Positions 47,422-64,000 of a stretch of DNA of 64,000 nucleotides are shown piece by piece. The DNA is taken from positions 29,923 to 93,922 of IMG/VR virus record IMGVR_UViG_3300008266_008316. One strand, given 5' to 3'. The position numbers were made by a program, and so were the translations under genes. The DNA is from a virus. The notes below the pieces were generated by a model. The model worked only from the letters and a program-made list of their open reading frames with translations. It was not told the DNA's origin and did not search any database. Position 1 is the first letter of the stretch, and each line of letters opens with the position of its first letter.

Positions 47422-47424
47422 GTT

Positions 47425-47676: not shown

Positions 47677-47685
47677 GGAGTAGTT

Positions 47686-48543
47686 ATGAAAAGTGTATTG
47701 GTTACGGGCGGTGTTGGTTTTGTCGGTACTAACTTAATTCGTAGATTATTGAACGAAGGATGTCAAGTAATATCAGTAGACAATTACGAAGTTGGTACGG
47801 TTGAAAATGAACACGACGGTGCGACATACCTACAGTTTGATGTACGGGATGATTTATTTACGGCGTTACAACCATATGATATAGACGTAGTGTATCATCT
47901 AGCGGCATTATCTAGAATACAACCATCGTTTGAAAATCCAACTGAAACTGTCGAAGTAAATACAAATGGTACTCTTTCCGTATTAGAATGGGCACGTTCT
48001 AGAAATATAAAGGTGATATATGCCGGCTCTTCGTCCAGATGGCACAACCCGTTTATATCTCCATATGCTTTATCTAAACATATGGGTGAGGAGTTGTGTA
48101 AGACGTATCGTACAATCTATAATATGGAAATAGAAATAACCAGATTCTACAATGTGTATGGACCGCGTGAGATTACAGAAGGTGATTGGGCGGCAGTTAT
48201 TGGTAAATGGAGAGGACAAGTAGAACGAGGTGAATTAATTACTATTGTCGGAGACGGGGAACAACGTAGAGATTTCACACATATTGACGATATAGTAGAT
48301 GGATTGATTCGAATCGGACAATCAAATGAACGTCACCACGATGCGTGGGAACTTGGAACGGGAAATAACTATTCACTAAATGAAGTGTATCATATGTTCC
48401 GCGATAAATTCAAAGTCGGATTCATAAGACTTCCAGACCAACAAGGAAACTATAAGGAAACGCGTCGAGAGAATAATGATGCAGTAGATAGACTAGGTTG
48501 GGTACCAAACGATAGGTTACGGGAGTATATCAATAATTTATGA
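47686..48543 (+). CDS. NAD-dependent nucleotide-sugar epimerase
   Basis: 285 residues, extended short-chain dehydrogenase. VLVTGGVGFVGTNL, YHLAALSRIQPS, SPYALSKHMGEEL (YxxxK) and GDGEQRRDFTHIDDIVDG are typical of UDP-glucose 4-epimerase-like enzymes. The region usually holding the catalytic Ser reads AGSSSRW. It opens the nucleotide-sugar operon with GAGG upstream of its ATG and a 4-base overlap with rmlB. Confidence 0.82.
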   Translation: MKSVLVTGGVGFVGTNLIRRLLNEGCQVISVDNYEVGTVENEHDGATYLQFDVRDDLFTALQPYDIDVVYHLAALSRIQPSFENPTETVEVNTNGTLSVLEWARSRNIKVIYAGSSSRWHNPFISPYALSKHMGEELCKTYRTIYNMEIEITRFYNVYGPREITEGDWAAVIGKWRGQVERGELITIVGDGEQRRDFTHIDDIVDGLIRIGQSNERHHDAWELGTGNNYSLNEVYHMFRDKFKVGFIRLPDQQGNYKETRRENNDAVDRLGWVPNDRLREYINNL

Positions 48544-49514
48544 AAATACTAGTTACGGGTGGTTGTGGGTTTATCGGTAGCAACTTCATAGAGTTTCTAC
48601 TGACACATACTGATTATTATATTATCAATGTCGATGCGTTGACATACGCAGGCGTGACCTCTCATCCAAAGAGTTCACGGTATCTCTTCTATCAAGCAGA
48701 CATCGGTGACCCAGTTATCATCGATACGATTATATTGAACCATAAACCAGATTTCATCATCAACTTTGCTGCTGAAACACACGTTGATCGTTCCATCGCT
48801 GACCCCGATGCGTTTGTCAAAACGAATCTGATGGGCACTTATAACTTCCTCTGTGCTCTTCGACGATATAACGAAACTGGAGCACGGTTTAGATTCATTC
48901 ATATCTCAACCGATGAAGTGTACGGACATTTATCAACTGATGACCCTCCGTTTACAGAATCCACACCATACGCACCGAATAGTCCATACTCCGCTACGAA
49001 AGCAGGTGGGGATCATTTAGTCAGAGCATTCAACAAGACATTCAATCTACCAGCTATCATCACCCATTGCACCAACAACTATGGACCACGACAATATCCA
49101 GAGAAGCTGATACCGACTGTGATTCGAAAGGCAATGAAGAATGAACGTATTCCGGTGTATGGCACGGGAATGAATATACGAGATTGGTTACACGTTGATG
49201 ATCATTGTAGAGCTCTATATCGTGTATTGTTGGATGGGAAGATTGGTTCGGTATACAACATTGGTGGCAATTCTGAACGGGCAAACATCGATGTAGTCAA
49301 ATTGATTCTTCATATAATGAACAGAGATGAATCCTTGATTGAATATGTCGAGGATAGAAAGGGACATGACTTTAGATATGCGATGTCCATAGAAAAGATA
49401 GAAAAAGAATTAGGATGGAAACCTTCCGTGTCATTCGAGGAAGGGTTATATAAAACTGTCGAATGGTATCTTTCAAATGTTACTTGGATGGAACAATGCG
49501 AACTCTCGGTATAA
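48540..49514 (+). CDS. rmlB: dTDP-glucose 4,6-dehydratase
   Basis: 324 residues. ILVTGGCGFIGSNFIEFL, ETHVDRSI, HISTDEVYG and YSATKAGGDHLVRAF (YxxxK), then TNNYGPRQYPEKLIPT and GTGMNIRDWLHVDDHC are diagnostic of RmlB. It makes dTDP-4-keto-6-deoxyglucose from dTDP-glucose, the branch point for many deoxysugars. The next gene, rmlA, starts inside its last codons. Confidence 0.93.
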   Translation: MKILVTGGCGFIGSNFIEFLLTHTDYYIINVDALTYAGVTSHPKSSRYLFYQADIGDPVIIDTIILNHKPDFIINFAAETHVDRSIADPDAFVKTNLMGTYNFLCALRRYNETGARFRFIHISTDEVYGHLSTDDPPFTESTPYAPNSPYSATKAGGDHLVRAFNKTFNLPAIITHCTNNYGPRQYPEKLIPTVIRKAMKNERIPVYGTGMNIRDWLHVDDHCRALYRVLLDGKIGSVYNIGGNSERANIDVVKLILHIMNRDESLIEYVEDRKGHDFRYAMSIEKIEKELGWKPSVSFEEGLYKTVEWYLSNVTWMEQCELSV

Positions 49515-50398
49515 TATTAGCTGGTGGAAAGTCAACACGTTTGTATCCTTCTACGTTAGTTGCCACCAAACAACTACTTCCGGTATACGATAAACCCCTT
49601 ATCTATTATCCACTCTCGACATTGATGTTGGCAGGTGTTCGAGATTTTATAATCATCAGCTCTCCAGGCGAATTAGATAGTTTCAATAAGTTGTTTGCTA
49701 ACGCAAAAGAAGAGTTAGGAATTTCTGTACGATGTCTAGTACAACCAGTTCCTCTCGGTATAGCTGATGCATTCAATATCGTACACAATACTATTCAAAA
49801 TGAAATTTTCGAATATGATGCACATGCATTAATTCTTGGAGATAATATTTTTTATGGTTCTGGATTGCGGGGATTGTTAGATGAGGTGAATAAAGAAGGA
49901 ATCAGAAAGAAAGCAGAAGTGTTCCTATACCCTGTCAGAGATCCAGAGTTGTTTGGTGTTGCTGAAGTAATGAATAATAAAGTTATATCGATTGAAGAAA
50001 AGCCTACAAAACCAAAAAGTAATTTAGCAGTTACCGGCCTTTACTTTTATCCCACAAGCGTGTATCTTTATACTACGATGTTGTCACCGTCCAAACGTGG
50101 TGAACTTGAAATCACCGATTTAAACAAGTATTATCTTGATAGAGGAGAGATGGAAGCTGTACAATTGTCGAGAGGTATGGTGTGGTTTGATACGGGAAAT
50201 GCTGAAGCAATGTTAGAAGCAGCAAATTTCATTCACAATGTACAGAAACATCAAAACTATCTTGTTGGTAGTCCGCACGAAATTGCAATTACAAAGAAAT
50301 GGGTAACAAGAGAAGGTGTCACGCCATTTATTGAACTATGCAGTAAGACAGAATATGGGAAGTATCTCAAAACGGTTTTAGATAGAGAGGAATTATGA
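49496..50398 (+). CDS. rmlA: Glucose-1-phosphate thymidylyltransferase
   Basis: 300 residues from ATG 49496. GIILAGGKSTRLYPSTLVAT, KQLLPVYDKPLIYYPL, ILGDNIFYG and GLYFYP match RmlA closely. It joins dTTP and glucose-1-phosphate to give dTDP-glucose. The family is inhibited by dTDP-rhamnose in bacteria. The next gene overlaps its stop (ATGA). Confidence 0.93.
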   Translation: MRTLGIILAGGKSTRLYPSTLVATKQLLPVYDKPLIYYPLSTLMLAGVRDFIIISSPGELDSFNKLFANAKEELGISVRCLVQPVPLGIADAFNIVHNTIQNEIFEYDAHALILGDNIFYGSGLRGLLDEVNKEGIRKKAEVFLYPVRDPELFGVAEVMNNKVISIEEKPTKPKSNLAVTGLYFYPTSVYLYTTMLSPSKRGELEITDLNKYYLDRGEMEAVQLSRGMVWFDTGNAEAMLEAANFIHNVQKHQNYLVGSPHEIAITKKWVTREGVTPFIELCSKTEYGKYLKTVLDREEL

Positions 50399-51696
50399 CA
50401 GACGATAAACGTATAGAGCTGCTTATAGATGAATTGACAAAAGCAGTCCAACCGAAGTGGGCGTATAATAGTAAGGACTTTGTGCCGGGTAAATCACCCG
50501 TCTATTATTCTGGTCCATTCTTTGATGACAATGAAATCCGTATGGCATTGACTGCATTCCTTACGGGGAAGTGGTTAGTGTCTGGTGAATACGTCAACAA
50601 GTTTCAAGTACGATTTGCTGAATTATTCAAGGTAAGGTTTGCCCATATGGTAAATTCTGGCTCTTCGGCAAATCTTGTACTAGTTGCTGCAGTCAAGAAG
50701 TATTTAGGTTGGGAAGATGGTGATGAGGTTATTGTGTCACCCGTTGGATTCCCTACGACGATAGCCCCGCTCGTTCAGAATGGATTGAAGCCGGTATTCG
50801 TCGATATCGAAATAGATACGCTAAACTTTGATTTGATGGAGATTGTCAAAAAGATTACTCCACGCACCAAAGCCATTTTCGTTTCTCCCGTACTCGGTAA
50901 TCCGCCTAATATGGATATACTGAAAGGTATCTGTGAATCACACAACCTGATTCTACTCGGGGACAATTGCGATAGTCTGGGTTCACATTGGAACGATAAA
51001 CTTATCAACGAATACTACTACGCGTGGTCGTGTTCGTTCTATCCAGCACATCATATTACGACAGGTGAAGGTGGTATGGTGTGTTCTAATGATGAAAAAT
51101 TGATTGACCTTGCTCGAAGTATTTCGTGGTGGGGCCGTGATTGTTATTGTGTCGGAGCAGCAAACCTTCTTGCATGCGGAACGTGTGGGAAACGATTTGA
51201 TACGTGGCTCGAAGGATATAATGGCGTCGTGGACCACAAGTATGTATTCACACAGATGGGATACAATCTCAAGCCGCTTGACCTTCAAGGCGCAATCGGT
51301 ATGGCACAGTTAGAAAAGTTTGATACGATTCATAGTGGGCGTCGAAACAGTAAGCAACGTATTCACGAAAGTATTATGAAACACATCAAGGGCGTCCGTG
51401 TGGTTGAAGAAAGTGAACTCGCCGAAACTTCGTGGTTTGGTGTTCCGATTTATGTTGAAGATTCGCAAATGAAAACGAAACTCCAACAGCACTTCGAGGA
51501 TAACAAAATCCAGACTCGAAACTATTTCGCTGGTAACATCTTACTACACCCAGGGTATTCACACTTGGGTAATTACAAGGAGTATCCCCTTGCCAATCTA
51601 GCATTGAGTAACGTGTTCTTTTTGGGATGTCCACCACATTATACGGAAGAAGTATTGAACTATATTGATGAAGTGTGTGCGAAATGGAATCAATAA
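50395..51696 (+). CDS. RfbH/E1-type PLP-dependent hexulose 3-dehydrase
   Basis: 433 residues of the DegT/DnrJ aminotransferase fold. The PLP-binding Lys is replaced by His220 in SFYPAHHITTGEGG, the hallmark of E1 dehydrases. Cys192, Cys250, Cys252 and Cys261 (GRDCYC, LLACGTCGKR) match the 2Fe-2S ligands of that enzyme. It would remove the C3 hydroxyl of a 4-keto-6-deoxy sugar, giving 3,6-dideoxy sugars (abequose or paratose type). Partner genes here are dTDP-type, so a SpnQ-like use of dTDP-sugars is possible. No E3 reductase is seen; host reductases may serve. Confidence 0.85.
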   Translation: MTDDKRIELLIDELTKAVQPKWAYNSKDFVPGKSPVYYSGPFFDDNEIRMALTAFLTGKWLVSGEYVNKFQVRFAELFKVRFAHMVNSGSSANLVLVAAVKKYLGWEDGDEVIVSPVGFPTTIAPLVQNGLKPVFVDIEIDTLNFDLMEIVKKITPRTKAIFVSPVLGNPPNMDILKGICESHNLILLGDNCDSLGSHWNDKLINEYYYAWSCSFYPAHHITTGEGGMVCSNDEKLIDLARSISWWGRDCYCVGAANLLACGTCGKRFDTWLEGYNGVVDHKYVFTQMGYNLKPLDLQGAIGMAQLEKFDTIHSGRRNSKQRIHESIMKHIKGVRVVEESELAETSWFGVPIYVEDSQMKTKLQQHFEDNKIQTRNYFAGNILLHPGYSHLGNYKEYPLANLALSNVFFLGCPPHYTEEVLNYIDEVCAKWNQ

Positions 51697-52514
51697 ACGT
51701 TTTTGGTGGGAAGGGATTTGTCGGTTCACGTTATGTTGAACTATATCCGAATTGTGTTGTAAACCAACGAAACGATTATTCACCGAAAACAAACAACATT
51801 CTGTATTTCATTTCTACGGTAGATAACTACAATGTATTCTATGACCCGTTTATTGATATAAACACGAATCTAACTACGTTGATCACCGTACTTCAAAACA
51901 TACAAGATAGAGAAAATACCGTATTCAATTTCATATCGTCGTGGTTCGTATACGGAGACACGGATTTACCGGCAAAAGAAACGTCTTATTGTAATCCGAA
52001 GGGGTTCTATTCAATCACGAAACGTACAGCGGAACAGATGCTCATATCGTATTGTCAAACGTTTGGGATAAAATATCGTATACTTCGATTGGCAAACGTA
52101 GTAGGACTGTCAGATAGAAAAGCATCTACAAAGAAAAATGCAATCGTACATATGATAAAGTCTTTACACAAAAATGAACCAGTACCTTTATATGATGGTG
52201 GACAGTTGTATAGAGACATTATTGATTTAGATGATTGTGTCCGAGCTATTGATATGGTATTGACAAGGGGTGAAGTGAATGAGATCTACAATATAGGAAA
52301 CGGTAAAGCTGTTTCACTATATGATATTGTTATGGACGCACGTAGAATGCTAGGTTCAACGAGCGAGATTACATATGTAGATGCACCCAACTTTCATAAA
52401 ATCGTACAAGTAAAATCGATGTATATGGACAATAGTAAATTGCAATCACTTGGATATACGCCTGAATATGATACACGGGATATAATTCAACGAGTGATTG
52501 ACAAATGTGAATGA
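51684..52514 (+). CDS. NAD-dependent sugar reductase/epimerase
   Basis: 276 residues from ATG 51684, overlapping the dehydrase gene. VFGGKGFVGSRYVEL is a shortened Rossmann loop, FISSWFVYGDTDLPAKE and FYSITKRTAEQML (YxxxK) give the catalytic centre, and DGGQLYRDIIDLDDCV the substrate loop. By position it likely reduces the 4-keto group after 3-deoxygenation, as paratose/abequose synthases do. Confidence 0.78.
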   Translation: MESINVFGGKGFVGSRYVELYPNCVVNQRNDYSPKTNNILYFISTVDNYNVFYDPFIDINTNLTTLITVLQNIQDRENTVFNFISSWFVYGDTDLPAKETSYCNPKGFYSITKRTAEQMLISYCQTFGIKYRILRLANVVGLSDRKASTKKNAIVHMIKSLHKNEPVPLYDGGQLYRDIIDLDDCVRAIDMVLTRGEVNEIYNIGNGKAVSLYDIVMDARRMLGSTSEITYVDAPNFHKIVQVKSMYMDNSKLQSLGYTPEYDTRDIIQRVIDKCE

Positions 52515-52565
52515 TGTGAGTAGATTACATAGTATTGTTATCTTTCAAGACTAAACGGAGTTATA

Positions 52566-53378
52566 ATGCGTATTATTACAGAACCAAAAGTTACACTAAT
52601 TGCTAAACAAGTATTTCTCGGACACCCAGACTATGATATTCCATCTGACGGCAACGATGCTGTCAAGATTGGTGCATTCGCAGCAAAGGGATGTTATGAT
52701 AGTTTCGGTGCTGATGGTAGGGCAAACATTAAAAATCAAGAAGCAATCCTCGAACATCAGCACGGTTCTGTACTGGAGCACGTGACATTTACTTTGTTTG
52801 TGGAAGGAATCACCCGTGGACTTTCACTTGAAAGCAATCGGCATCGCCAGTTAGCAGTGTCCCAACGTTCTACCAGATATACAGCTGAAGAAGATGCAGC
52901 AATTGTATTAGAGCCATTTTATGCGAAGCTATATCAAAAGTATGAACCGTGGTTGGTTGACCCGAACAAGGATGACATTACAGAAGATTTTAAGTTAGAT
53001 GAATTGAATTTTATCGCCTCGCATCTAGCATCACTGCAAATGGGTATCGATGCATACCAACGTGATGTGAATTGGCTCATGCATATGAATCCGCTGATGT
53101 TGACGGGATTCGATTTGCGCAAGTGGGCCCGAGGAAAAGCTCGTAATCTTTTACCACATGCACTTGAAACGCGTATTACTTATACTGGTAATGTTAGAGC
53201 GTGGCGTTGGTTCATCGAATCACGTTCTGATAAACACGCCGAACCAGAGATTCGACGGTTGGCTGAAAAGATTCTTGAAATTTTAAAGGTCGAGGCGCCT
53301 GTGTATTTCAACGATTTCTATGTGTCGGAAGTATATGATGGTATGAGAGTATGGAAGCCATTACATAGGAAAGTATGA
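52566..53378 (+). CDS. thyX: Flavin-dependent thymidylate synthase
   Basis: 270 residues. NRHRQLAVSQRSTRY (from residue 91) is the ThyX motif RHRxxSxNxxSxR with Ala97 and Ser99 replacing the usual Ser and Asn; the last Ser102 and Arg104 are kept. ThyX methylates dUMP to dTMP using FAD and methylene-tetrahydrofolate. dUMP can come from the dCMP deaminase at 26.9 kb. GGAGT precedes the ATG. Confidence 0.92.
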   Translation: MRIITEPKVTLIAKQVFLGHPDYDIPSDGNDAVKIGAFAAKGCYDSFGADGRANIKNQEAILEHQHGSVLEHVTFTLFVEGITRGLSLESNRHRQLAVSQRSTRYTAEEDAAIVLEPFYAKLYQKYEPWLVDPNKDDITEDFKLDELNFIASHLASLQMGIDAYQRDVNWLMHMNPLMLTGFDLRKWARGKARNLLPHALETRITYTGNVRAWRWFIESRSDKHAEPEIRRLAEKILEILKVEAPVYFNDFYVSEVYDGMRVWKPLHRKV

Positions 53379-53542
53379 TTGAACTACTTAAACGTATATT
53401 ACTCTGGACGATATTCTGTATTATAGCAGGTGTAATACTATTTATCACAGTAGTATCATCTATTATAATAATACTATATAATACATTAATACGTTATAAT
53501 AAACGTCGAATAGTACTAATACAGACGGAAATCAGAGACTAA
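53375..53542 (+). CDS. 55-residue membrane protein
   Basis: The ATG overlaps the thyX stop. One long hydrophobic span (LLWTIFCIIAGVILFITVVS and onward) is flanked by Lys/Arg at both ends (LIRYNKRRIV). Single-span topology is likely. It might be a holin-like or antiholin-like protein, but no evidence beyond topology exists. Confidence 0.5.
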   Translation: MIELLKRILLWTIFCIIAGVILFITVVSSIIIILYNTLIRYNKRRIVLIQTEIRD

Positions 53543-53552
53543 ATGCGTAGGG

Positions 53553-53595
53553 AAGGGAGCGTAAGGCATTACAGGACAAAGCCTTACGCTCCCTT
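53553..53595 (+). repeat. Palindrome of the palindrome-promoter cassette, copy 1
   Basis: 15-bp perfect stem AAGGGAGCGTAAGGC / GCCTTACGCTCCCTT with a 13-base loop ATTACAGGACAAA. The right arm runs into the -35 box TTGACT. No T tract follows, so it is not a standard terminator. Copy 2 at 55935 shares loop and arm ends. Confidence 0.85.
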
Positions 53596-53622
53596 GACTT
53601 TGGGGTAGTTTGTAGGTACATT
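53594..53622 (+). promoter_or_regulatory. Sigma70-type promoter for vWA gene
   Basis: TTGACT, 17-bp spacer, TACATT, directly attached to the palindrome. TTTGGGG (53599-53605) and CCCCAAA (53632-53638) form a second inverted repeat around the -10 box. Confidence 0.7.
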
Positions 53623-53656
53623 TCAACGTATCCCCAAAACCCCTTCATATAGGACT

Positions 53657-55927
53657 ATGACGAAAAACACCTCTCATTCTAACTACTGGCTGGACTCTGA
53701 CCTCTTCGACGATGAGAACGAACTGCAGGATGGTGTCGAGGAGACAGAGGAAATTGCCAATCTGGCACGGGTCGCTCGGCTCAGTGCCGCTCGTCGTGCC
53801 ACTGCGAACTTTGTCAACATTCTGACAGGTCGTAATGATATTCCGGTTCGGTATTCGTCGGGCAAGGATAGTTACACCGATGGTAAGGAAGTTATCATCG
53901 CCGCTGACGACAATCCCAATCATTTCGATTCTATGGTCGGCCTCGCTCTCCACGAAGGTAGTCACGTTCTTCTGAGCGACTTTGAATTTGTTTCCGCTGT
54001 AGCTGAAGTTGCCAAGCAGATTGACACCGATTGGGGTATCGATACCCGATGGGGCAATCGCGTTCTCCCACAGCAGAATCACGGCTATGATGAACAAATT
54101 GAAGTGAGTACTGTCCTTAAGAAGATTCTCCATCCGTCTCTTGCGGCACTACTCCCACCTGCGATGACCAATGCCCGTCATTCGGACAATGTGACATTGT
54201 ATGCACGTGTTGCTCGTCAGTATGTTCACGACCTGCAGATGATTATGAACATCCTTGAAGATCGTCGTATCGACAAGTATGTGTATCAGAATTGCGGTGG
54301 ATATCGTCCTTACTACGATAGCCTGTATGAAAGGTACTTTTTTACTACGGAGATTGAACGTAATCTTCGCTGGAATCCGAGCTGGCGTGAACTGACTGTT
54401 GAGAACTACATCAATCGTCTATTGTTTGTTATTCACCCGGCATCGAATCCGACTGCGCTTCCCGGCTTGGATACTCTTATCAAGATGATGGACCTTCGAA
54501 ACATTGAGCGTATCGCTCCGACCGATAAGGTGTGGAAGGATATTATTTCGTATGACCACATGCCTGCTATTTGGCAGACGGCCAACGAACTTTACGCTTA
54601 CATTCTTCGTTTCGTCGCTCGTAGTATGGAAGATGCGAATAAGGGCAATGAAGGCGTTCCTACCTATAACAATCAGCCGATGGATGGATTTCCTTCGGCA
54701 CAGTCTGTGATTGATTCTACTAACAATCTTCCGAATCTGGACATTCCTCGGGGTCAGATGGTTCCTACGGAAGTCGAAGAGGCTGATAAGACGAAGGCTG
54801 GTAAGGAGAAGCCCCGTAACTTCAACGACAAGCGTGGTAAGTCACAGGTCGAGAAGGCCAAGGATGTTGTCAATGGTGAGCTGAAGAAGCGGAAGGCTAA
54901 GAAGGCGGAACTTCTCGCCGCTGATGCACTGGAGAATGCGCAGGCTAAGATGGTTGACCTTAAGGGTGATGGTATTCCCGGCGGTGAGTGTATGGTGACG
55001 CGAAAGATGTCAGAGGCTATGTTTACGCAGGACTGGTTCATCTTCCGTAGTTGGTCATCGTGGGATGGTAGCCGTGAGAACGATCTTCGTAAGAAGGCTA
55101 TTGCCGCCGGTAAGCGCATGGGTCAGATTATGGTACATCGTCTCCAGGTTCGAAATGACCCCGTGATGACGAAGAACACTCGCCTTCAGCACGGTGGTCT
55201 TGACCGCCGACTGTTGGCTCAGCTGGGTATGGATATTACCAGCGTGTTCCAGAAGTCACGCATCGATACCTTCAAGCCGGCGATGTTGCACTTGACGCTT
55301 GACGCTTCGGGTTCAATGAGTGGCCGAAAGTGGGAGAAGGTATTGACGGTCGCTACCGCTCTTGCGTATGTTGGTAACAAGATGCGCAATATTGATACGG
55401 TGATTACGATTCGCGGTGGTAACGATATTCCCGTGGTGTGTGTTGTGTTCGATAGTCGTAAGGACCAGTTCACTTCGTGGCTCAAGTGGGCTCCTCGTTT
55501 GTCACCCGCTGGTTCGACTCCCGAGGGTCTGTGTTTCAAGGCGACGATGGAACTGATTACGGAATGTGCTTCTACTCACGATGTGTACTTCATCAATTTC
55601 TCTGATGGTGAGCCGGGTTTCTCTCTGGACCTTCGCTCTATGTTGAAGAAGAAGCGTGGTCGCCGGACGTATTGGGGTGACGATGCTACGGTGTGTAGTT
55701 ATCAGGGTGAGATGGCATTCAAGCACACTCGCCAGATGGTTCAGAATATGAAGGACCACGGCATCAAGGTATTGTCGTATTTCATTACCGAATCCAGTTA
55801 TGGTATGACACGTTCTATGGATGTGTTCCGCCGGATGTATGGTGAGGATGCAGTGGCGGTCAACGTCGAAAACGCTTCTGACGTAATCCGTACCCTCAAC
55901 AAAGCACTGACCAATCGGGGTGTGTAA
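53657..55927 (+). CDS. CobT-like von Willebrand A protein with HExxH N-terminal motif
   Basis: 756 residues. ALHEGSHVLL (His99, Glu100, His103) is a zinc-peptidase HExxH as in vWA proteins of the DUF2201 kind. A basic/acidic linker follows (about 370-440). The C-terminal vWA domain starts with LDASGSMSG (MIDAS, near residue 548) and contains FSDGEPGFSL. The partner is the AAA+ gene at 56056, as in CobS/CobT cobaltochelatase and MoxR-vWA systems. Function may be metal insertion into a corrin ring or chaperoning of a target. Codons strongly favour AAG and CGT with C/G endings. Confidence 0.75.
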   Translation: MTKNTSHSNYWLDSDLFDDENELQDGVEETEEIANLARVARLSAARRATANFVNILTGRNDIPVRYSSGKDSYTDGKEVIIAADDNPNHFDSMVGLALHEGSHVLLSDFEFVSAVAEVAKQIDTDWGIDTRWGNRVLPQQNHGYDEQIEVSTVLKKILHPSLAALLPPAMTNARHSDNVTLYARVARQYVHDLQMIMNILEDRRIDKYVYQNCGGYRPYYDSLYERYFFTTEIERNLRWNPSWRELTVENYINRLLFVIHPASNPTALPGLDTLIKMMDLRNIERIAPTDKVWKDIISYDHMPAIWQTANELYAYILRFVARSMEDANKGNEGVPTYNNQPMDGFPSAQSVIDSTNNLPNLDIPRGQMVPTEVEEADKTKAGKEKPRNFNDKRGKSQVEKAKDVVNGELKKRKAKKAELLAADALENAQAKMVDLKGDGIPGGECMVTRKMSEAMFTQDWFIFRSWSSWDGSRENDLRKKAIAAGKRMGQIMVHRLQVRNDPVMTKNTRLQHGGLDRRLLAQLGMDITSVFQKSRIDTFKPAMLHLTLDASGSMSGRKWEKVLTVATALAYVGNKMRNIDTVITIRGGNDIPVVCVVFDSRKDQFTSWLKWAPRLSPAGSTPEGLCFKATMELITECASTHDVYFINFSDGEPGFSLDLRSMLKKKRGRRTYWGDDATVCSYQGEMAFKHTRQMVQNMKDHGIKVLSYFITESSYGMTRSMDVFRRMYGEDAVAVNVENASDVIRTLNKALTNRGV

Positions 55928-55934
55928 AGGTCAG

Positions 55935-55973
55935 AGGGACGTAAGGCATTACAGGTCAAAGCCTTACGTCCCT
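55935..55973 (+). repeat. Palindrome of the palindrome-promoter cassette, copy 2
   Basis: 13-bp stem AGGGACGTAAGGC / GCCTTACGTCCCT with loop ATTACAGGTCAAA. Relative to copy 1 one base pair is missing from the stem on both arms together, so the structure is preserved. Confidence 0.85.
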
Positions 55974-56001
55974 TGACACCCCATAGAAAGTCTGTTAGAT
56001 T
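55973..56001 (+). promoter_or_regulatory. Sigma70-type promoter for AAA+ gene
   Basis: TTGACA, 17-bp spacer, TAGATT. The -35 box starts at the last base of the palindrome, exactly as in copy 1. Confidence 0.72.
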
Positions 56002-56055
56002 TATAGAAGGTTCGAGAAGTACCAATTTCCCTATTTCATTTTGGAGAGTATAAAC

Positions 56056-57291
56056 GTGGCTAAGCGTAAGATGGTTCGGAAGGTTTCGAAGAATGTGGTA
56101 AAGAAGTCGGTTGAGCAGATTGTGGTTCGTCTGACTGACGCCGGTACGGTGATTGACCAGAACGGCCGTGATGTTACGAAGCGTATTCCGAAGAACAAGA
56201 TCCGTGTGATGGATCGTGACGGCGTGTGTCTCCGCCTTGTTCATACCAAGACGGGTGGTGAGCAGTGGCGTTCGGCGGATATGTCGCTGTATGATTCGCT
56301 GAGCAAGACCGCTGCCCCGCTCGACGCGGTGGATAACCGTAGTGATGAGCAGCATGGTGATGTTGAGCAGTATATCAAGGATAGTATTTCGCTCCGTCCG
56401 ACTAACCTTATCCTCAGCGACTTGAAGTGGAAGTATCTGATGCGTTCCGTTGTTCGTGGTAAGAACATTATGATGACCGGCCCTTCGGGTTGTGGTAAGA
56501 CTCTCGCTGTTCAGAGTGTCGCTAAGGCACTCAATGGTCGCCCGTATTACTACTTCAACCTCGGCGCTACTACGGACCCGCGTTCTACCCTTATCGGTAA
56601 TACGCATTACAATAAGGAGAAGGGTACCTATGTGGCTGACGCTCTCTTCGCTCAGGCTATTCAGAAGGAGAACGCCATCATTCTGATGGACGAGTTGACC
56701 CGAGCCACGCCGGACGCGTGGAACATCCTTATCACCGTGCTCGACGAGAATCAGCGGTACCTGCGTACCGACGAAAAGCCGGACACGCCGACTATCAAGG
56801 TTGCCAAGGGTGTGACCTTTATCGCTACGGCGAATATCGGTGCGGAGTATACGTCCACTCGCGTTCTTGACCGAGCGATGCTTGACCGTTTCTCGGCTAT
56901 CGTAGAGATGGAACCGCTGTCGAAGGATGAAGAGGTTCGTCTCCTGTCGATGACCTATCCGAATCTCGCTGAGAAGGACATCACGGCAATCGCCGAAATC
57001 GCCGCTCATACTCGAGCGCAGGTCAAGTCCGATGATGCCCGTGTCACTACGTCTATCTCGAGCCGTCTGACGGTAGAGATGGCTGGGCTGATGTACGATG
57101 GATTCAATCTCGCGGAGGCCGCTGAGGTGTGTATCTATCCGTTCTTCTCGGAGGCTGGTGGTGTTGACTCCGAGCGTACCTATATGAAGCAGCTGGTCCA
57201 GAAGTATCTCCCGGCTGTCTCGGCTGGTACGAACAATCCGTGGGAACACGTTTCCAACGGGACCGACACTAATTATGCGATGAACGTGTAA
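56056..57291 (+). CDS. CobS/MoxR-like AAA+ ATPase
   Basis: 411 residues from GTG 56056 (GGAGAG upstream). Residues 1-110 are a basic N-terminal domain. The AAA+ core has Walker A MTGPSGCGKTL, the RSTLIGNTHY pore or insert region, Walker B ILMDELTRA, sensor 1 FIATANIG and arginine-finger region RVLDRAMLDRFSA. The sequence order is that of MoxR/CobS ATPases, which act with a vWA partner; that partner is directly upstream. Codon bias is the strongest in the window, suggesting high expression. Confidence 0.85.
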   Translation: MAKRKMVRKVSKNVVKKSVEQIVVRLTDAGTVIDQNGRDVTKRIPKNKIRVMDRDGVCLRLVHTKTGGEQWRSADMSLYDSLSKTAAPLDAVDNRSDEQHGDVEQYIKDSISLRPTNLILSDLKWKYLMRSVVRGKNIMMTGPSGCGKTLAVQSVAKALNGRPYYYFNLGATTDPRSTLIGNTHYNKEKGTYVADALFAQAIQKENAIILMDELTRATPDAWNILITVLDENQRYLRTDEKPDTPTIKVAKGVTFIATANIGAEYTSTRVLDRAMLDRFSAIVEMEPLSKDEEVRLLSMTYPNLAEKDITAIAEIAAHTRAQVKSDDARVTTSISSRLTVEMAGLMYDGFNLAEAAEVCIYPFFSEAGGVDSERTYMKQLVQKYLPAVSAGTNNPWEHVSNGTDTNYAMNV

Positions 57292-57334
57292 TCGTTCACA
57301 CACTTTAACTTTATATAAGAGGACCAAAAGAACA

Positions 57335-57514
57335 ATGGGTAAGACGTTTAAGGACCAGCGGAAGTATGACAAGAAGCACCGTGACCGTGAGGATTCTGGA
57401 ATGAGTAAGACGCCACGTAAGAACCGAACGGCTCGCTACGAGGAAATCATTCCCGATGAGGATGAGATGGATCGGTATGAATACCTCGACTACGATTACG
57501 ACGACGAACGCTAA
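57335..57514 (+). CDS. Small highly charged protein
   Basis: 59 residues. A basic first half (KTFKDQRKYDKKHRDRE) and a very acidic, Tyr-rich second half (DRYEYLDYDYDDER). AGAGG lies upstream. Same codon bias as the AAA+ gene. It might be an adaptor or nucleic-acid mimic; unproven. Confidence 0.55.
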   Translation: MGKTFKDQRKYDKKHRDREDSGMSKTPRKNRTARYEEIIPDEDEMDRYEYLDYDYDDER

Positions 57515-57537
57515 TCACAATATAAACGGTTATATAA

Positions 57538-57723
57538 ATGACATACAATATCGGTGAGTACGTTCAAATCGTCAATCACGCTGAGTCCGAATGTAATGGG
57601 CAGTATGGGTATATCAAAGAGATTCAAATCGGTTATGATGGCATGACCCGATTCTATACGGTCGAACTTGAAGATACCTACACCAAATGTACTTGTATCG
57701 ACGATGAAATGATGGAAGGATAA
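57538..57723 (+). CDS. Small hypothetical protein (SH3/KOW-like)
   Basis: 61 residues. YNIGEYVQIVNHAESECNGQ and YGYIKEIQIG resemble a short KOW/SH3 barrel of the type that controls protein or RNA contact. Three cysteines. No function known. Confidence 0.5.
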   Translation: MTYNIGEYVQIVNHAESECNGQYGYIKEIQIGYDGMTRFYTVELEDTYTKCTCIDDEMMEG

Positions 57724-57724
57724 A

Positions 57725-57793
57725 ATGCAAGCAGCAGGTACATTACTACTCATTGTTCTCGCCCTCGCGTATATCGCTTCGGCAGACGAATGA
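57725..57793 (+). CDS. 22-residue hydrophobic peptide
   Basis: ATG 57725 follows the previous stop closely; the peptide AAGTLLLIVLALAYIASADE is a single membrane span with an acidic end. The tight spacing and the terminator eight bases later support it, but it is very short. Confidence 0.35.
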   Translation: MQAAGTLLLIVLALAYIASADE

Positions 57794-57800
57794 TACAAGG

Positions 57801-57839
57801 AAAGGGGGCCCGAAATCAAACGGGCTCCCTTTTCATTTT
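57801..57839 (+). terminator. Rho-independent terminator
   Basis: AAAGGGGGCCCG and CGGGCTCCCTTT form a 12-bp stem (one G-T) around AAATCAAA, then TTTTCATTTT. It ends the vWA/AAA+ unit. Confidence 0.88.
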
Positions 57840-57924
57840 GTACCGATAATCTTTTGAAAGTTATCGATGGTGGTTTAGTATTTATTATTAGATAGATATG
57901 ACTTTTCAAACCTAATAAGTCGAT

Positions 57925-58689
57925 ATGAAACGAATAGCAATATGCCTAGCAGGTAATCTTCGTAAATACGAACAGTTTCAAATAGAATGGATGAAGATCT
58001 CCTCGAATACAAATACTGATATTTTTTTGAGTACATGGGACTTTACCGGAAAAAAATTAGGGGTCACCGATCCTTCGCACAAATCCTACCACGATTACAA
58101 CTATAACGACACCATCCCATATAGTATAGATTTTTTAAAGACTAGAGGATTCATTGACGTAGAAATAGAACCGTTTTACCCAACATTTTATGAAAGGTTT
58201 GCAGAACAAATTCAACCGTTATGGTCCTATTATCGATTATCGACTCCATACGATCCATATGTCGAAAGTATGAAGGGGATGCATCGTGAACATATGATTG
58301 CTTTTCTTTCGATGTGGTATAAACGATGGAAGGTATTTGACTTGTGTAATCTATATGCACGAACCCATAATATTACTTATGATATAGTGATGATGGGTAG
58401 ACCTGATATTGTTCCACGACATATTGAGTATGAATCAATAGTCGAAGACGCGATAAATGTTCGAGCTGGATATGACCAAGAGCAAGACTTTGATGACCAT
58501 CTCGCTGTCGGTTCGTTTGACTTGATACGAGAATATTCACTACTATATCCACGATTTGAATACGCTTGTCGTTACTGGCCGGTGCGTGTTGCTGAAAACC
58601 TTCACCAACCAACGGGGTACCTTCGAATCTATCTTGAACAACTCAACATCCCGATACATCTACATTCACCCTCAACTCTCAACTATTAG
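57925..58689 (+). CDS. Putative glycosyltransferase-like protein
   Basis: 254 residues. KRIAICLAGNLRKYEQF, DIFLSTWDFTGKK and IVMMGRPDIV follow a pattern shared by a family of bacterial and phage proteins annotated as putative glycosyltransferases (ICLSGQLR, TWD, RxD). A TATTTATT element, one base off the window's recurrent motif, is 38 bases upstream. It stands alone, separated from the main array. Confidence 0.5.
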   Translation: MKRIAICLAGNLRKYEQFQIEWMKISSNTNTDIFLSTWDFTGKKLGVTDPSHKSYHDYNYNDTIPYSIDFLKTRGFIDVEIEPFYPTFYERFAEQIQPLWSYYRLSTPYDPYVESMKGMHREHMIAFLSMWYKRWKVFDLCNLYARTHNITYDIVMMGRPDIVPRHIEYESIVEDAINVRAGYDQEQDFDDHLAVGSFDLIREYSLLYPRFEYACRYWPVRVAENLHQPTGYLRIYLEQLNIPIHLHSPSTLNY

Positions 58690-58835
58690 ATCGTATTTTG
58701 TCGGGCAACCTTAATACATATATAAACAAGTATACACCAATATTCACCAGGCGTTTTTAAAAAATTTTTGACCCCACGAATTTCAAGCGTGTTGCTCATA
58801 TACCGCTTGATCGTACCCTATGGAAAGAACCAGTT

Positions 58836-59399
58836 ATGACGATTAAGAATCCCAATGCCCCAACCGGTGGACGCCCACCTGCGAAACCGATTCTCCGTGC
58901 CGAAATCGAAGAAGCACAACGGCACACGAAGAGTAATAGCCAAGCCGCCAAGTATCTCAATGTCCCGTATAAACGCTATAAACAATATGCGGAGTTATAC
59001 GGGTTGTTCGCCGGGCACTTGAACGTGCGGGGCGTCGGGATTGATAAAGGGTTTGGCAAGAAGCCGACGAGTATCCCGCTCCGTGATATCTTGTCGGGCA
59101 AACATCCTACCTATAGTCTCAGCAAACTGAAGAATAGACTGGATGGCAACCGTAGTCATATGCAACTGGACAACCTGGAACTCCGCTGTTATAACTGTAT
59201 GTTCCTCACTACTGGAGCACCAAGTGTCGTGTACAGGGGATATATGGAACGTTCACTCCGTGCGGATCTCCCACCATATACTCGACACTATGATACCGAC
59301 CCCATCCCGGCCGATGCGATTGACCCCTCCGACGATCTCCCGACTTCCGATGTCACCCTCACGCCCGAGGAATTGGAAGCCCTCTATAATCCCGATTGA
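58836..59399 (+). CDS. Putative helix-turn-helix DNA-binding protein
   Basis: 187 residues. SQAAKYLNVPYKRYKQYAEL resembles a helix-turn-helix where a residue series chooses DNA bases. LRCYNCMFLT is a lone CxxC. The C-terminal 50 residues are Asp/Pro-rich. GC content is higher than in the left part of the window. Perhaps a regulator or an endonuclease relative; no catalytic motif seen. Confidence 0.45.
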   Translation: MTIKNPNAPTGGRPPAKPILRAEIEEAQRHTKSNSQAAKYLNVPYKRYKQYAELYGLFAGHLNVRGVGIDKGFGKKPTSIPLRDILSGKHPTYSLSKLKNRLDGNRSHMQLDNLELRCYNCMFLTTGAPSVVYRGYMERSLRADLPPYTRHYDTDPIPADAIDPSDDLPTSDVTLTPEELEALYNPD

Positions 59400-59424
59400 C
59401 CCCTTACCCTAATGGACCCCACGA

Positions 59425-59622
59425 ATGGATGAACACACACTACTCCGATATCAAGAAGCGCAAGGCATGGATCTCTATGACTTTTTCCATGATGAACCTA
59501 CGGATACCCCATCACATACAATCTCATTAGACTATGTGACGGAGCAGGTTCAACAGCTGACGGAACGCTTGCTTACCCATAGTCAAAACCTCGATGGCAC
59601 TAGCCTCCCCATCGCGGAGTAA
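59425..59622 (+). CDS. Small hypothetical protein
   Basis: 65 residues, acidic, with a helical second half (YVTEQVQQLTERLLTHSQN). Upstream GGACCCCACGAAT is repeated at 58770 before the previous gene. No family recognised. Confidence 0.4.
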   Translation: MDEHTLLRYQEAQGMDLYDFFHDEPTDTPSHTISLDYVTEQVQQLTERLLTHSQNLDGTSLPIAE

Positions 59623-59759
59623 GCACTTTTTCCTAGAGAGACGCCTAGCCCTATAGGCGCTCGACTGCGCCCCCTTCTACGAGCGGTTCCCAACGTTCCA
59701 CACGCTGGGAGCCGTTGTTCGTGCCGGCCCACCACACGCCACACCACGTTACACGGCGT

Positions 59760-59790
59760 CCCACACGCTACACAACGTGGGGCGTGTGGG
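59760..59790. repeat. Nested inverted repeats CCCACACGC / GCGTGTGGG
   Basis: Perfect 9-bp arms (59760-59768, 59782-59790). A second pair CCACGTT (59744-59750) / AACGTGG (59774-59780) interlocks with it, so only one of the two hairpins can form at a time. Confidence 0.75.
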
Positions 59791-59812
59791 GAACGTGGGG
59801 GCGGAGAGGGCT

Positions 59813-59999
59813 ATGTTTTATCATCGTTGTGGTATGGTGTGGCGTGGTACATATGGGGTGCGTGATGTATACGTGCTGGTGTAATGGCTGAAGGATGATT
59901 ATATACATGTGTGGTAGTAAGGGTGCCCGCAAACGATGACGATATACATACGAAAGGCTATACACATATGACTATATAGGAATATGTTTTATCATCGTT
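59813..59999. repeat. Direct repeat ATGTTTTATCATCGTT
   Basis: Exact 16-base copies at 59813-59828 and 59984-59999, with a partial third (GTTTTATCACG) at 60010. Spacing about 171 bases. Confidence 0.8.
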
Positions 60000-60034
60000 C
60001 GAGGGTAGCGTTTTATCACGCCGCCGGCAGGCAA

Positions 60035-60069
60035 GAAAAAACCCCACCTGGCGGAAGTGCCAGATGGGG
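60035..60069 (-). terminator. Rho-independent terminator of the minus-strand cluster
   Basis: On the minus strand CCCCATCTGGC-ACTTCC-GCCAGGTGGGG is an 11-bp stem (one T-G) followed by six T. It closes the transcription unit that runs leftward from the window's right end. Confidence 0.88.
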
Positions 60070-60077
60070 TTGATTGA

Positions 60078-60182
60078 TTACCGGCCGTATGTGGTGCGGT
60101 ATCGTTGGGTGAGGAGACGCACCAGCGTGACGAGCGGGTGCGTGAACCCCCTGCGGGGATTATATCGGATATACATGGTCAT
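60078..60182 (-). CDS. 34-residue basic protein
   Basis: ATG 60182 lies one base after the stop of the upstream gene (TAATATG), which suggests coupling. Arg-rich sequence (YIRYNPRRGF, RLLTQRYRTTYGR). It is the last gene before the terminator. Supported by position only. Confidence 0.4.
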   Translation of the reverse strand: MTMYIRYNPRRGFTHPLVTLVRLLTQRYRTTYGR

Positions 60183-60183
60183 A

Positions 60184-60528
60184 TTAAAAGGGAAGATCTT
60201 CACCCAGATCGTTGTCCACGGCGTTACGGGCCTCGACCAGCCCGAGATTGAATGCGGCACGGACAATCTTGATCTTGTCCAATCGGGAGAGATTGGTATT
60301 GCGGAGGGTGCCAATCAACGTCTGGAGATTGGAAACGTCCGACTTCGGGGCCGGCGTGTGGAGGAGTGTAGCACGGAGTGACAGCACTTCCTGTTCGAGG
60401 AGCTCCATATATCGCTCGTTGATGAGCTGATCCATCTTGATGCGGATGTCGTCGGAGGCCTGATTGCGCAACTGCCAAAGGAGATCGTAATTCATGTTGG
60501 GTACCGTATTAGGAGTGACTTGAACCAT
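60184..60528 (-). CDS. Hypothetical protein with L7/L12-like C-terminus
   Basis: 114 residues, or 103 if ATG 60495 is used. A helical N-terminal half is followed by LSRLDKIKIVRAAFNLGLVE, which matches the signature helix-turn of the ribosomal L7/L12 C-terminal domain (KIxxIKxVRxxTGLGLxEA). This fold recurs in phage proteins of unknown role; mimicry of the ribosomal stalk is conceivable. Confidence 0.5.
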   Translation of the reverse strand: MVQVTPNTVPNMNYDLLWQLRNQASDDIRIKMDQLINERYMELLEQEVLSLRATLLHTPAPKSDVSNLQTLIGTLRNTNLSRLDKIKIVRAAFNLGLVEARNAVDNDLGEDLPF

Positions 60529-60718
60529 CGGGGAGAACAGCGATTACCATACTGCCAACGTCAATGAGAAACTCATCGGGAAAGCCCAGCGGGGAGCTGA
60601 CGGTAATGGTATGAGGAAGATTAAAACGATGAGCGATATCGCAGGCTTTCTCGAACTGCGGGACGGTCATATGTGCGGGGTATCCCGTGCGATACTGAAA
60701 GCGATGAACAGGCATCAT
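60509..60718 (-). CDS. Small hypothetical protein
   Basis: 69 residues from ATG 60718, which overlaps the upstream stop region and has GGAG nearby. YRTGYPAHMTVPQFEKACDI and IDVGSMVIAVLPDG suggest a compact alpha/beta fold. Unknown function. Confidence 0.5.
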   Translation of the reverse strand: MMPVHRFQYRTGYPAHMTVPQFEKACDIAHRFNLPHTITVSSPLGFPDEFLIDVGSMVIAVLPDGSSHS

Positions 60719-60719
60719 A

Positions 60720-60986
60720 TTAGGGCTCCATGTTGGAGATGAGAGTAATAAAGGCTGCCACATCACCAGTAGTGCAGTAGCCCTTCACGGTGTCACCATC
60801 TTCGAACTTGTACCAGTTCCGTGCCGCGTCCCAGGCGGCAATCTCAGCGGAATTGGCCTTCTCACACTTCGTTCCAATCAGTTGACCGTAGTTGGACGAA
60901 TACGTGCAGGCACCCCACTGGACACTGACCGTCCAACCATTGCCGAACGTCATCTGAAACCCCGAACCACGGGTAATCTTAAACAT
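60720..60986 (-). CDS. Conserved phage protein (GFQMTFGNGWTVSVQWG family)
   Basis: 88 residues. GSGFQMTFGNGWTVSVQWG at the N-terminus is a widely seen opening in small phage proteins of unknown role; SAEIAAWDA and VKGYCTTGDVAAFI complete the pattern. An excellent GGAGGAG lies upstream. Confidence 0.65.
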   Translation of the reverse strand: MFKITRGSGFQMTFGNGWTVSVQWGACTYSSNYGQLIGTKCEKANSAEIAAWDAARNWYKFEDGDTVKGYCTTGDVAAFITLISNMEP

Positions 60987-61017
60987 CTTCTAGCTCCTCC
61001 AGGAGTTGATTGTCATT

Positions 61018-61560
61018 TTATCGTACCGCCCACTTGCTCGGACGGGAACCGAACGCGAAGGTCGGATCGTCCTCTGATGGGGTAATGGTGACCGTCATCG
61101 TGATGGTGTTGCCCTTCTGAGCGTTGGACCCATTCGGGAGACTCACCCAGAGCTTCATCCCTTCGGGCGTCTGACCCAGAATCTTGGGACCGAACATCCG
61201 CTCCTTGATGGCGAGAATCTCGAGCGTGACCTGCCGGCGTTCCTTGGTCCAGATGTAGTTATTCTGGATCAGGTGCTGCTTCTGACTCTCTCGAGCCTCC
61301 CACCGCTGACGACCGGAGATCGTGGCTTCGGTGAACTTCCGACGAGCGAACTCATACTGCTTCGGCGTCAGCCCACCCCACTGGCGGAGACTGTCCGTGA
61401 TGAACCGCGGTGGGGTGCCGTACCACTTGAAGAAGTTAGTACGTTCCGTCTCGTCCTGAATAGACTCGACGAAATCGACCCCCAGCCACACACGGAACAG
61501 AAGGTCACCCTTGGTCTGGGCGTCAAACTCGTTACGGCGACGAAGAAAAGCCTTGGTCAT
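61018..61560 (-). CDS. Hypothetical protein
   Basis: 180 residues; AAGGA precedes the ATG. A helical N-terminal two-thirds, including WGGLTPKQYEFARRKF, resembles a short domain in zinc- or RNA-related phage proteins. A beta-rich C-terminus follows (MKLWVSLPNGSNAQ, ITMTVTITPSEDD). No assigned function. Confidence 0.5.
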   Translation of the reverse strand: MTKAFLRRRNEFDAQTKGDLLFRVWLGVDFVESIQDETERTNFFKWYGTPPRFITDSLRQWGGLTPKQYEFARRKFTEATISGRQRWEARESQKQHLIQNNYIWTKERRQVTLEILAIKERMFGPKILGQTPEGMKLWVSLPNGSNAQKGNTITMTVTITPSEDDPTFAFGSRPSKWAVR

Positions 61561-61593
61561 ATATCCTTTTGGAAGAAGTGATGTAAAGTGAAG

Positions 61594-61665: not shown

Positions 61666-61714
61666 GTGTACCCCTAATATTTAGCGAGGTCTAGGGATAA
61701 TCCTCGTCGTACCA

Positions 61715-62357: not shown

Positions 62358-62358
62358 A

Positions 62359-62460: not shown

Positions 62461-62482
62461 GCTGTTCTCCGTGTTGGTTTGG

Positions 62483-63292: not shown

Positions 63293-63487
63293 TTAGTAGA
63301 GATTGACATTAGAAGGATTTTCATTCACCCAAGCCATCCAACCCATTAAGATTGCCTTGGCCTCTTTTCTACCGATATCGAAATCCTCTTCGAGATAGGG
63401 AGTCGCACCGAACATATTGGTGACGCCAGACTCACGAAGGTTATTGAGATAGATGTACTCTAGACGATGTTTCTGAAAGTTACTCAT
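63293..63487 (-). CDS. Conserved small phage protein
   Basis: 64 residues. FQKHRLEYIYLNNLRESGVT and YLEEDFDIGRKEAKAILMGW match a family of small phage proteins (NLRESGxTNMFGA..YL) that recurs in early regions. No known role. The start overlaps the upstream stop. Confidence 0.65.
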   Translation of the reverse strand: MSNFQKHRLEYIYLNNLRESGVTNMFGATPYLEEDFDIGRKEAKAILMGWMAWVNENPSNVNLY

Positions 63488-63741
63488 TAGACTCGCTCAA
63501 TGAGGAAGTGATTGCGGAACTTCTTGAACTCACTACGGGTGATAGCGAAGCCCTGCGTACGAAGGGTTCGAAGGTTCTTGACCGAACCGAACGTCTTAAG
63601 AGCGGACTCCTTGTTCTTCTTACCGTAGAAGTACTGCGTCATACGGTCAACGGTGATTTCCTTACCACCATGCTTCCCCATCTTCATCTCACGGGGAATC
63701 TCGAGCGTAACCTTGTAGTTGAACTTAGCGGTCTTAGCCAT
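63487..63741 (-). CDS. Small basic hypothetical protein
   Basis: 84 residues, rich in Lys/Arg (MKMGKHGGKEITVDRM, KKNKESALKTFGSVKNL). AAGG precedes the ATG. First gene of the cluster after tRNA-Glu. No family recognised. Confidence 0.5.
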   Translation of the reverse strand: MAKTAKFNYKVTLEIPREMKMGKHGGKEITVDRMTQYFYGKKNKESALKTFGSVKNLRTLRTQGFAITRSEFKKFRNHFLIERV

Positions 63742-63782
63742 TGTGTTGTCCTTGTGTTGTGTTGTGGTGTTGCGTTGGTGAA

Positions 63783-63855
63783 TAGCCCTAACGGGAATCG
63801 AACCCGTCTCTTGACCTTGAAAGGGTCATGTCCTAAACCGATAGACGATAGGGCC
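63783..63855 (-). tRNA. tRNA-Glu (TTC)
   Basis: 73 bases. Acceptor GGCCCTA/TAGGGCT (first pair G-T), anticodon stem TGACC/GGTCA with loop CTTTCAA (anticodon TTC), T arm ACGGG-TTCGATT-CCCGT, discriminator A. CCA is not encoded. Confidence 0.92.
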
Positions 63856-63870
63856 GTGGTTTTACGTCAT

Positions 63871-63907
63871 CACTAGAGACCGGAATGTCACATCGGAAGG
63901 TCTAGTG
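63871..63907. repeat. Inverted repeat upstream of tRNA-Glu
   Basis: CACTAGA (63871-63877) and TCTAGTG (63901-63907) plus ACC/GGT inside form a stem around a 17-base loop in the leader of the minus-strand cluster. Could be a processing or attenuator structure. Confidence 0.5.
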
Positions 63908-63933
63908 TGTGTCGTCAGTCAGTTTTCAATCAG

Positions 63934-63953
63934 CCGGCCCCCTCTGGGACCGG
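63934..63953. repeat. GC-rich hairpin near the right end
   Basis: CCGGCCCC and GGGACCGG pair (one mismatch) around a CTCT loop. A TCAGC flank repeats on both sides. Terminator-like shape but with only a short T run (TTTT) on the plus strand. Confidence 0.45.
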
Positions 63954-64000
63954 GTCAGCTTTTGGCGTGGCTGACTCTTACCCTTAATAATACCTAATTA

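Follow-up and report, generated by a model that had tools for sequence, protein, structure and literature searches.

The 64,000-nt stretch analyzed here (the window) forms the end of the 93.9-kb virus record IMGVR_UViG_3300008266_008316 (G000) and carries two stem-loops, A and B, that belong to a family of two-part elements: in each, a GC-rich stem-loop merges into the -35 of a sigma70-type promoter, and the whole stands between a gene read in the same direction and the transcription unit that follows. Copy A precedes a gene that a first-pass annotation of the sequence named vWA, and copy B precedes a gene for an AAA+ ATPase. The plan of this element is known and its form is new, as the stem has no T-run and is fused to the -35, and its core varies with the genome and not with the gene. 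Comparison of the copies revealed that, for the most part, core likeness follows the genome and promoter likeness the locus (the latter in three of four pairs), and the hairpin core seems, from these alignments, to have evolved separately from the adjoining promoters. Our favored reading, to which we assign a probability of roughly 0.45, is that the element may be a composite of an insulating stem and a sigma70 promoter, spread by recombination.

Stem-loops A and B and their promoters

Stem-loop A (53553..53595, plus strand) consists of perfect 15-bp arms (53553-53567 and 53581-53595) around a 13-nt loop at 53568-53580 (ATTACAGGACAAA), and stem-loop B (55935..55973, plus strand), which begins 7 nt past the vWA stop codon, of perfect 13-bp arms (55935-55947 and 55961-55973) around a 13-nt loop (ATTACAGGTCAAA) one base different from that of A. 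The core, GTAAG-N17-CTTAC, lies at 53561-53587 in A and at 55941-55967 in B. Folding gave a free energy (dG) of -28.5 and a z-score (z) of -7.8 for A, and of -27.4 and -7.3 for B, and none of 200 shuffled sequences was as stable as either. The first-pass annotation had described both palindromes and the joint loss of one base pair from both arms, and both descriptions were confirmed, the former beyond what shuffling yields: B lacks one G-C pair (GGGACG/CGTCCC versus GGGAGCG/CGCTCCC in A) with pairing kept, and A has one extra outer A-T pair. No Rfam match with an E-value up to 0.5 was found in window positions 50000-60000.

The right arms run directly into the promoters. As annotated at first, the last two bases of stem A are the TT, and the last base of stem B is the T, that open the TTGAC of the vWA promoter (53594..53622, plus strand, TTGACT-17-TACATT) and of the AAA+ promoter (55973..56001, plus strand, TTGACA-17-TAGATT), respectively. 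With up to three mismatches allowed, the 29-mer was found twice in the window and not once in 100 shuffles. The window contains 16 instances of the promoter pattern TTGAC-N18-TANNNT (mean of 3.3 in shuffles, 0/100 reaching 16), and a looser sigma70 scan of 44001-64000 showed no clear excess (50 versus 42.7 +/- 5.9 in shuffles). No T-run lies 3' of stem A or stem B, in agreement with the earlier judgment that these are not ordinary terminators; as the U-tract is absent, ordinary intrinsic termination is unsupported. A terminator scan of 44001-64000, limited to loops of 3-8 nt, reports neither stem.

The overlap of stem and -35 bears on a DNA-level explanation, in which a cruciform or single-strand hairpin masks or presents the -35 and the promoter is sensitive to supercoiling or replication. 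The stem reaches into TTGAC by one or two bases, the fold predicted for copy B, which has one bulge, pairs the whole box, and several promoters carry C-run/G-run repeats around the -35, all of which would suit it. However, loops of 13 nt generally disfavor cruciform extrusion and the -10 stays outside the stem, and we consider this explanation very improbable. C-run/G-run repeats flank the -35 at 53590-53606 and in the vWA promoters of two relatives described below (G003 and G006), as in CCC-TTGACTTT-GGGG, and the C-run before the -35 could thus pair either upstream or downstream.

Further copies in the same virus and its relatives

A record of 166.6 kb (G001), near-identical to G000 and in opposite orientation, extended the comparison beyond the window, and the pool of relatives was drawn from an AAA+ search, which gave 17 loci with AAA+ relatives. 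Nine records were inspected over long stretches (G001 and G003 to G008 complete; G009 and G010, 40 kb each), and G002, from the same virus, and G011 were pattern-searched and are otherwise known from single loci.

Pattern searches of G001 found four sites with a TAAGGC/GCCTTA-type core, A to D, and a degenerate copy, E. Sites A and B, on the minus strand of this record, have their -35 at 77970 and 75591, before vWA and AAA+, respectively; on the plus strand, C (-35 at 61275) stands before a GP88-family gene (PF17338, 1.2e-48), D (-35 at 67472, stem-loop at about 67427-67472 of the contig) before tRNA-Glu and a small open reading frame (ORF), and E at 65106. All five lie 5-8 nt upstream of a TTGAC-17-TANNNT promoter, and upstream of each an ORF in the same direction ends, its stop codon 31-161 nt from the -35. 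Stems A to D fold with z of -5.1 to -7.8, and stem E is weak. The core of D is flipped and its outer stem bulged, C and D having nearly the same 27-mer (26/27) in opposite senses. In each case the outer arm pairs with the site's own C-run before the -35 (A, GGGAG/CTCCC; B, GGGA/TCCC; C, GGGGGA/TCCCCC; D, with a bulge). The motif GTAAG-N17-CTTAC occurs four times in G001 versus 0.16 expected, each time at these promoters.

A GC-rich stretch of G001 (61.3-78.0 kb, mostly 0.45-0.57), which contains many small ORFs, holds or borders all five sites, with the outermost, C and A, at its borders and both pointing inward. It is interrupted by one AT-rich gap (73-74 kb, 0.38-0.39). The rest of the profiled G001 is mostly about 0.33-0.45, and a tRNA-rich patch near 48-50 kb reaches 0.50 (base composition was profiled in the window, in G001 at 40-100 kb in detail, and in the relatives G003 to G006 and G008).

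The closest other virus, G003 (AAA+ 77% and vWA 63% identical), carries sites of this kind at four promoters, which correspond in locus to B, C, D, and E; their inner sequence is another one (GTAAGTTGTTGATTTATAAGGACTTAC and variants). Two of its sites are exact GTAAG/CTTAC dyads and two are altered at the right end. GTAAG-N17-CTTAC was found twice in G003 versus 0.02 expected, both times 5-8 nt before TTGAC, and was absent from seven further records, of which two were sampled in part. The match between E and its G003 counterpart, E3, is loose, being based on a block of downstream ORFs, with a 140-aa ORF between E3 and the block in G003. At the vWA promoter G003 has instead a hairpin surrounding the -35.

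In G004 to G008 the promoters before vWA and AAA+ are kept and the core GTAAG-N17-CTTAC is absent. The first-pass annotation had seen in A and B matched operators that give vWA and AAA+ the same control. Each copy does stand before a good sigma70-type promoter, but the element is not private to the pair: the core also precedes GP88 and the tRNA-Glu unit, and G004 to G008 have both genes and lack it, so that operators private to vWA and AAA+ were discarded. The wider search found five sites in G001, four loci in G003, and no core in G004 to G008; what the annotation held to speak against its proposal, relatives with the genes and without the cassette, is borne out in part, by G004 to G008, G003 being the one that carries its own form.

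Structure, on the other hand, recurs without sequence at the vWA promoter, because 6/7 records (G001 and G003 to G007; better of two folding windows per site) show a hairpin located at the -35 or around it, with z of -2.5 or lower and in at least three unrelated sequences; within G004 to G008, four of the five have such unrelated hairpins. At the AAA+ locus, z (again from two folding windows per site) was -7.3 in G001, -4.8 in G003, -4.3 in G004, and -3.5 in G005, the last two being the only clear AAA+ hairpins within G004 to G008. Independent cases are fewer than seven, because G004/G005 and G006/G007 are related pairs. Over 131 promoter candidates from seven records, which count one hairpin-internal false promoter (G004 13955) and were chosen by -10 criteria slightly different from those of the other promoter lists, upstream z was below -3 in 10, versus 3/131 control windows; nine of these ten belong to the 51 candidates with GC-rich downstream sequence and one to the other 80. 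In G001 and G003 to G008, CCC stands directly 5' of TTGAC in 42/131 promoter candidates versus 62/1419 of all TTGAC, which amounts to an extended form of the -35.

GP88 was used as a second anchor, and 15 of the 80 loci returned were scanned for promoters. Under the criteria applied, four had a promoter before GP88: L113 (this virus), L116 (G003), L118, and L131, the last with no notable hairpin. In L118 (GP88 65% identical), a dyad variant, CTAAG-N17-CTTAG, lies 6 nt upstream of the GP88 -35. A second T-less stem of about 11 bp and unrelated sequence is found in L118 at about 3690-3735, just past the GP88 match, where it abuts a TTGAC promoter.

These sites can also be read as a dyad operator centered near -55 relative to the presumed start. 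Its two GTAAG(GC) half-sites, spaced 22 bp apart, would be bound by a regulator from phage or host that co-controls the units of the island, and palindrome correction would have produced the long stem as a side effect. G001 and G003 together have six exact sites with the half-sites conserved at fixed spacing, all 5-8 nt before TTGAC, whereas the G001 dyads with a spacer of 15 or 18 (three places) never stand at a TTGAC, and variable-gap searches found only the 13-nt spacing between GGC/GCC arms (the shared core length of 27 nt owes something to how the cores were chosen). The lack of a U-tract, the irrelevance of core orientation (C and D are flipped), the variant before GP88 in L118, and the retention of the dyad without the outer stem at E and E3 also agree with an operator. 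Conversely, the outer arms of A to C pair over their full site-specific length, which is more than a fixed operator needs, unrelated hairpins occupy the orthologous vWA promoters of G004 to G007, and the -35 is already close to consensus. No TAAG/CTTA dyad was seen by eye before GP88 in L115 (GP88 78%) and L117 (76%), whose folds are -3.3 and -12.7 without shuffle control. A regulator was not apparent either: a Pfam scan of 20 island ORFs put two above the curated cutoff, GP88 and DUF7717, with no clear DNA-binding family, the only hint being a DksA/TraR-type zinc finger below cutoff. A dyad operator, and with it operator function for a gene set wider than vWA and AAA+, is a serious alternative, somewhat less probable than the favored composite. 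The zinc finger ORF (L062 3192-3413; 5.4e-5, 23.5 bits, cutoff 24.9) is conserved in G003 and G004 and could encode an RNA polymerase regulator.

A wide distribution of the element in phages or hosts was not upheld by pattern searches of viral and genome contigs. The 16-mer CGTAAGGCATTACAGG occurs in 28 stretches of viral_contigs, only three of which, all from this virus (L023, L026, L030), extend into the right arm and TTGAC. The dyad-plus-TTGAC pattern was found in seven viral stretches, five of this virus and two contigs with one common other sequence and no visible -10, and in eight genome contigs, where the hits were by eye chance matches or ordinary stems. A looser pattern gave eight viral stretches, seven of this virus or G003 and an eighth (L110) without a promoter by the criteria used, and the first ORF behind D, used as a query, returned this virus only, at two loci. 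No DNA-level relatives were found in annotated phages, and the parts of the literature covered by a search, including passages of PMC4503421, PMC3950731, PMC5348500, PMC5931544, and PMC4177764, do not describe the element.

Separate histories of core and promoter

The nine cores, five from G001 and four from G003, were all taken as 27-nt pieces, so that their equal length is in part built in. Mean core identity was 21.9/27 within a genome (16 pairs) versus 17.7/27 between genomes (20 pairs), and among the 126 labellings of cores by genome the only one as extreme as that observed was the observed one itself. Orthologous core pairs share 17-18/27, not above other between-genome pairs (random mean 15.3, 95th percentile 18), and this divergence of the inner sequence to about the random level again suits an operator. 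The promoter halves of orthologous pairs, on the other hand, share 29, 28, 34, and 15 of 40 positions (mean 26.5), with means of 19.5/40 in other between-genome pairs and 20.1/40 in within-genome pairs. Copies A and B have cores alike at 26/27 and promoters alike at 13/40, whereas C and E have promoters alike at 34/40 and cores alike at 17/27. These mismatches rule out that hairpin and promoter were copied together as one recent block. Hairpin core, which varies with the genome, and promoter, which varies mostly with the locus, are usually treated as one cassette and prove separable here.

Separate histories and a flipped copy could also be expected from a selfish or neutral palindromic repeat, inserted or copied beside promoters and kept alike by gene conversion without any function. 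However, every GTAAGGC/GCCTTAC-type core in the 166.6 kb of G001 precedes a TTGAC promoter, the loci are matched in G003, and the outer stems are matched site by site, all of which makes such a repeat improbable.

Whole units also appear to move. The orthologous units of G001 and G003 differ in order and orientation, and recombination could swap units because the same core precedes several of them. Over 93.9 kb, identity between G000 and G001 is about 99.9%, the exceptions being the D unit and four short indels. Behind D, identity drops to 70-88%, and the first ORF shares 49/78 residues. In the window this unit occupies 63401..64000 (minus strand), with the first ORF at 63487-63741, tRNA-Glu at 63783-63855, and the -10 region at the window end; the far border of the exchange is out of view because the G000 record ends inside the D promoter, before reaching the D stem, which has for the same reason no counterpart in the window. 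No recombination breakpoint inside a core was resolved in the G001/G003 or G000/G001 comparisons. Segments of G001 of about 87, 110, and 96 nt are missing from the window record at 7839/7840, 26657/26658, and 59140/59141, respectively.

In the favored composite of stem and promoter, the stem would act on RNA arriving from the upstream gene, either stopping the transcript or fixing its 3' end, which might be set by trimming back to the stable stem after Rho-type termination. Hairpins of unrelated sequence at vWA and outer arms matched site by site argue for a role of structure, most simply in the RNA of the upstream gene. Each unit of the GC-rich island would in this way be insulated and driven by its own promoter, and recombination between copies would exchange units while keeping the cores of one genome alike.

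Several results weigh against this composite. No U-tract follows stems A to D. The stems are weak at G003 gp88, G003 E3, and G001 E, and E and E3, one in each genome, both retain an intact GTAAG dyad without the outer stem, as would be expected of a sequence-specific site more than of a terminator. The vWA promoter of G008 has no hairpin, the AAA+ hairpin is weak in G006 (z -1.0) and G007 (z -2.1), with z of -2.2 in G008, and those of G004 and G005 may be incidental because they lie inside the coding end of vWA. The absence of the dyad before GP88 in L115 and L117 counts here as well. The separation of histories rests on few copies, five in G001 and four in G003, with E as an outlier among the G001 cores, and the orthologous AAA+ pair, at 15/40, is without promoter likeness.

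The genome-wise likeness of the cores might also reflect a genome-specific regulatory code, in which the dyad cores of one phage would evolve together and independently of the promoters, so as to match a fast-changing trans-acting partner, either a phage regulator or an RNA-end factor. We regard such a code as unlikely; if true, every phage lineage would have its own lock for the same promoter set. With this family one can test whether recombination is enough to spread the cores or a partner molecule keeps them in step.

Known systems and neighboring genes

Promoter-early stem-loops (PeSLs) of T4-type phages, reportedly described by Arbiol in 2010 and Comeau in 2014, consist of a stem-loop followed by a strong sigma70-type promoter, are repeated among small plastic ORFs, and are tied to the reshuffling of units. 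They are said to operate much as proposed above for the composite, but the present stems have no U-tract. As a check, 63 kb of the minus strand of phage RB49 were scanned, with seven hits. Three of them, presumably the published PeSLs, have a stem with a 3-4 nt loop, 6-7 T in the next 8 nt, and a gap of 16-32 nt before TTGACA; the other four lack that T-run and gap, the one at 57297 having no gap and 3 T in 8. The present element resembles PeSLs in that a stem-loop stands directly upstream of a strong sigma70-like promoter at all five G001 sites (the stem of E being weak), and in being repeated within a plastic region rich in small ORFs (five at or in G001 61.3-78.0 kb). It differs in the 13-nt loop, the lack of a T-run, and the overlap of stem and -35, against the short loop, T-run, and gap of the RB49 sites, and in the separate histories of core and promoter. 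Because they have no U-tract and abut the -35, the stems are not filed as PeSLs but only as PeSL-like, and they extend the promoter-plus-stem-loop modules of T4-type phages, whose PeSLs are mentioned in a passage of PMC4503421, to a group of environmental phages.

An inverted repeat with a TATA-like motif before many ORFs is described for the archaeal virus HGTV-1 in a passage of PMC3950731. Judged by its description, it is likewise a repeated inverted repeat with a promoter-like motif before ORFs, but the promoter is archaeal. Intrinsic (Rho-independent) terminators, such as that of T4 with a stem-loop and a U-rich region in a passage of PMC5931544, share with the present stems a GC-rich stem shortly past a stop codon, but the present stems have no U-tract. 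T-less stems A and B contrast with the T-tract terminator-like sites that end the two converging units of the window, one of 14 pairs (57799..57834, plus strand) after the vWA/AAA+ unit and one of 13 pairs (60040..60071, minus strand) after the oncoming minus-strand island unit. These two are the longest of 25 consensus matches in 44001-64000 (15.0 in shuffles). Late promoters of P2-type phages have a dyad activator site for Ogr near -55, with half-sites TGT-N12-ACA. Dyad symmetry near -55, one per unit, is common to both, whereas the present half-sites differ from TGT-N12-ACA and the present -35 is near consensus.

Upstream of stem A lies a co-directional 55-aa ORF (53375..53542, plus strand), whose stop is 10 nt from the stem. 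The vWA gene (53657..55927, plus strand; 756 aa), with copy A upstream, encodes a protein without matches to Pfam or PHROG at 1e-3, whose translation shows a MIDAS-like DASGSMS stretch. Among 50,697 records, its only match in a cultured phage was Microcystis phage Mel-JY01 (27% identity), and one further match came from an uncultured phage. In the N-terminal part, an HEGSH (HExxH) motif, read by eye, suggests a metallopeptidase-like domain. Downstream of copy B, the AAA+ gene (56056..57291, plus strand) encodes an AAA_5/MoxR-like ATPase; its GTG start was chosen by eye, and the ORF list begins at TTG 56041. G001 also carries a transfer-messenger RNA (tmRNA) gene (L060 18245-18582; tag GNYNLALAA) and 31 tRNA genes (L060, L061, and L062).

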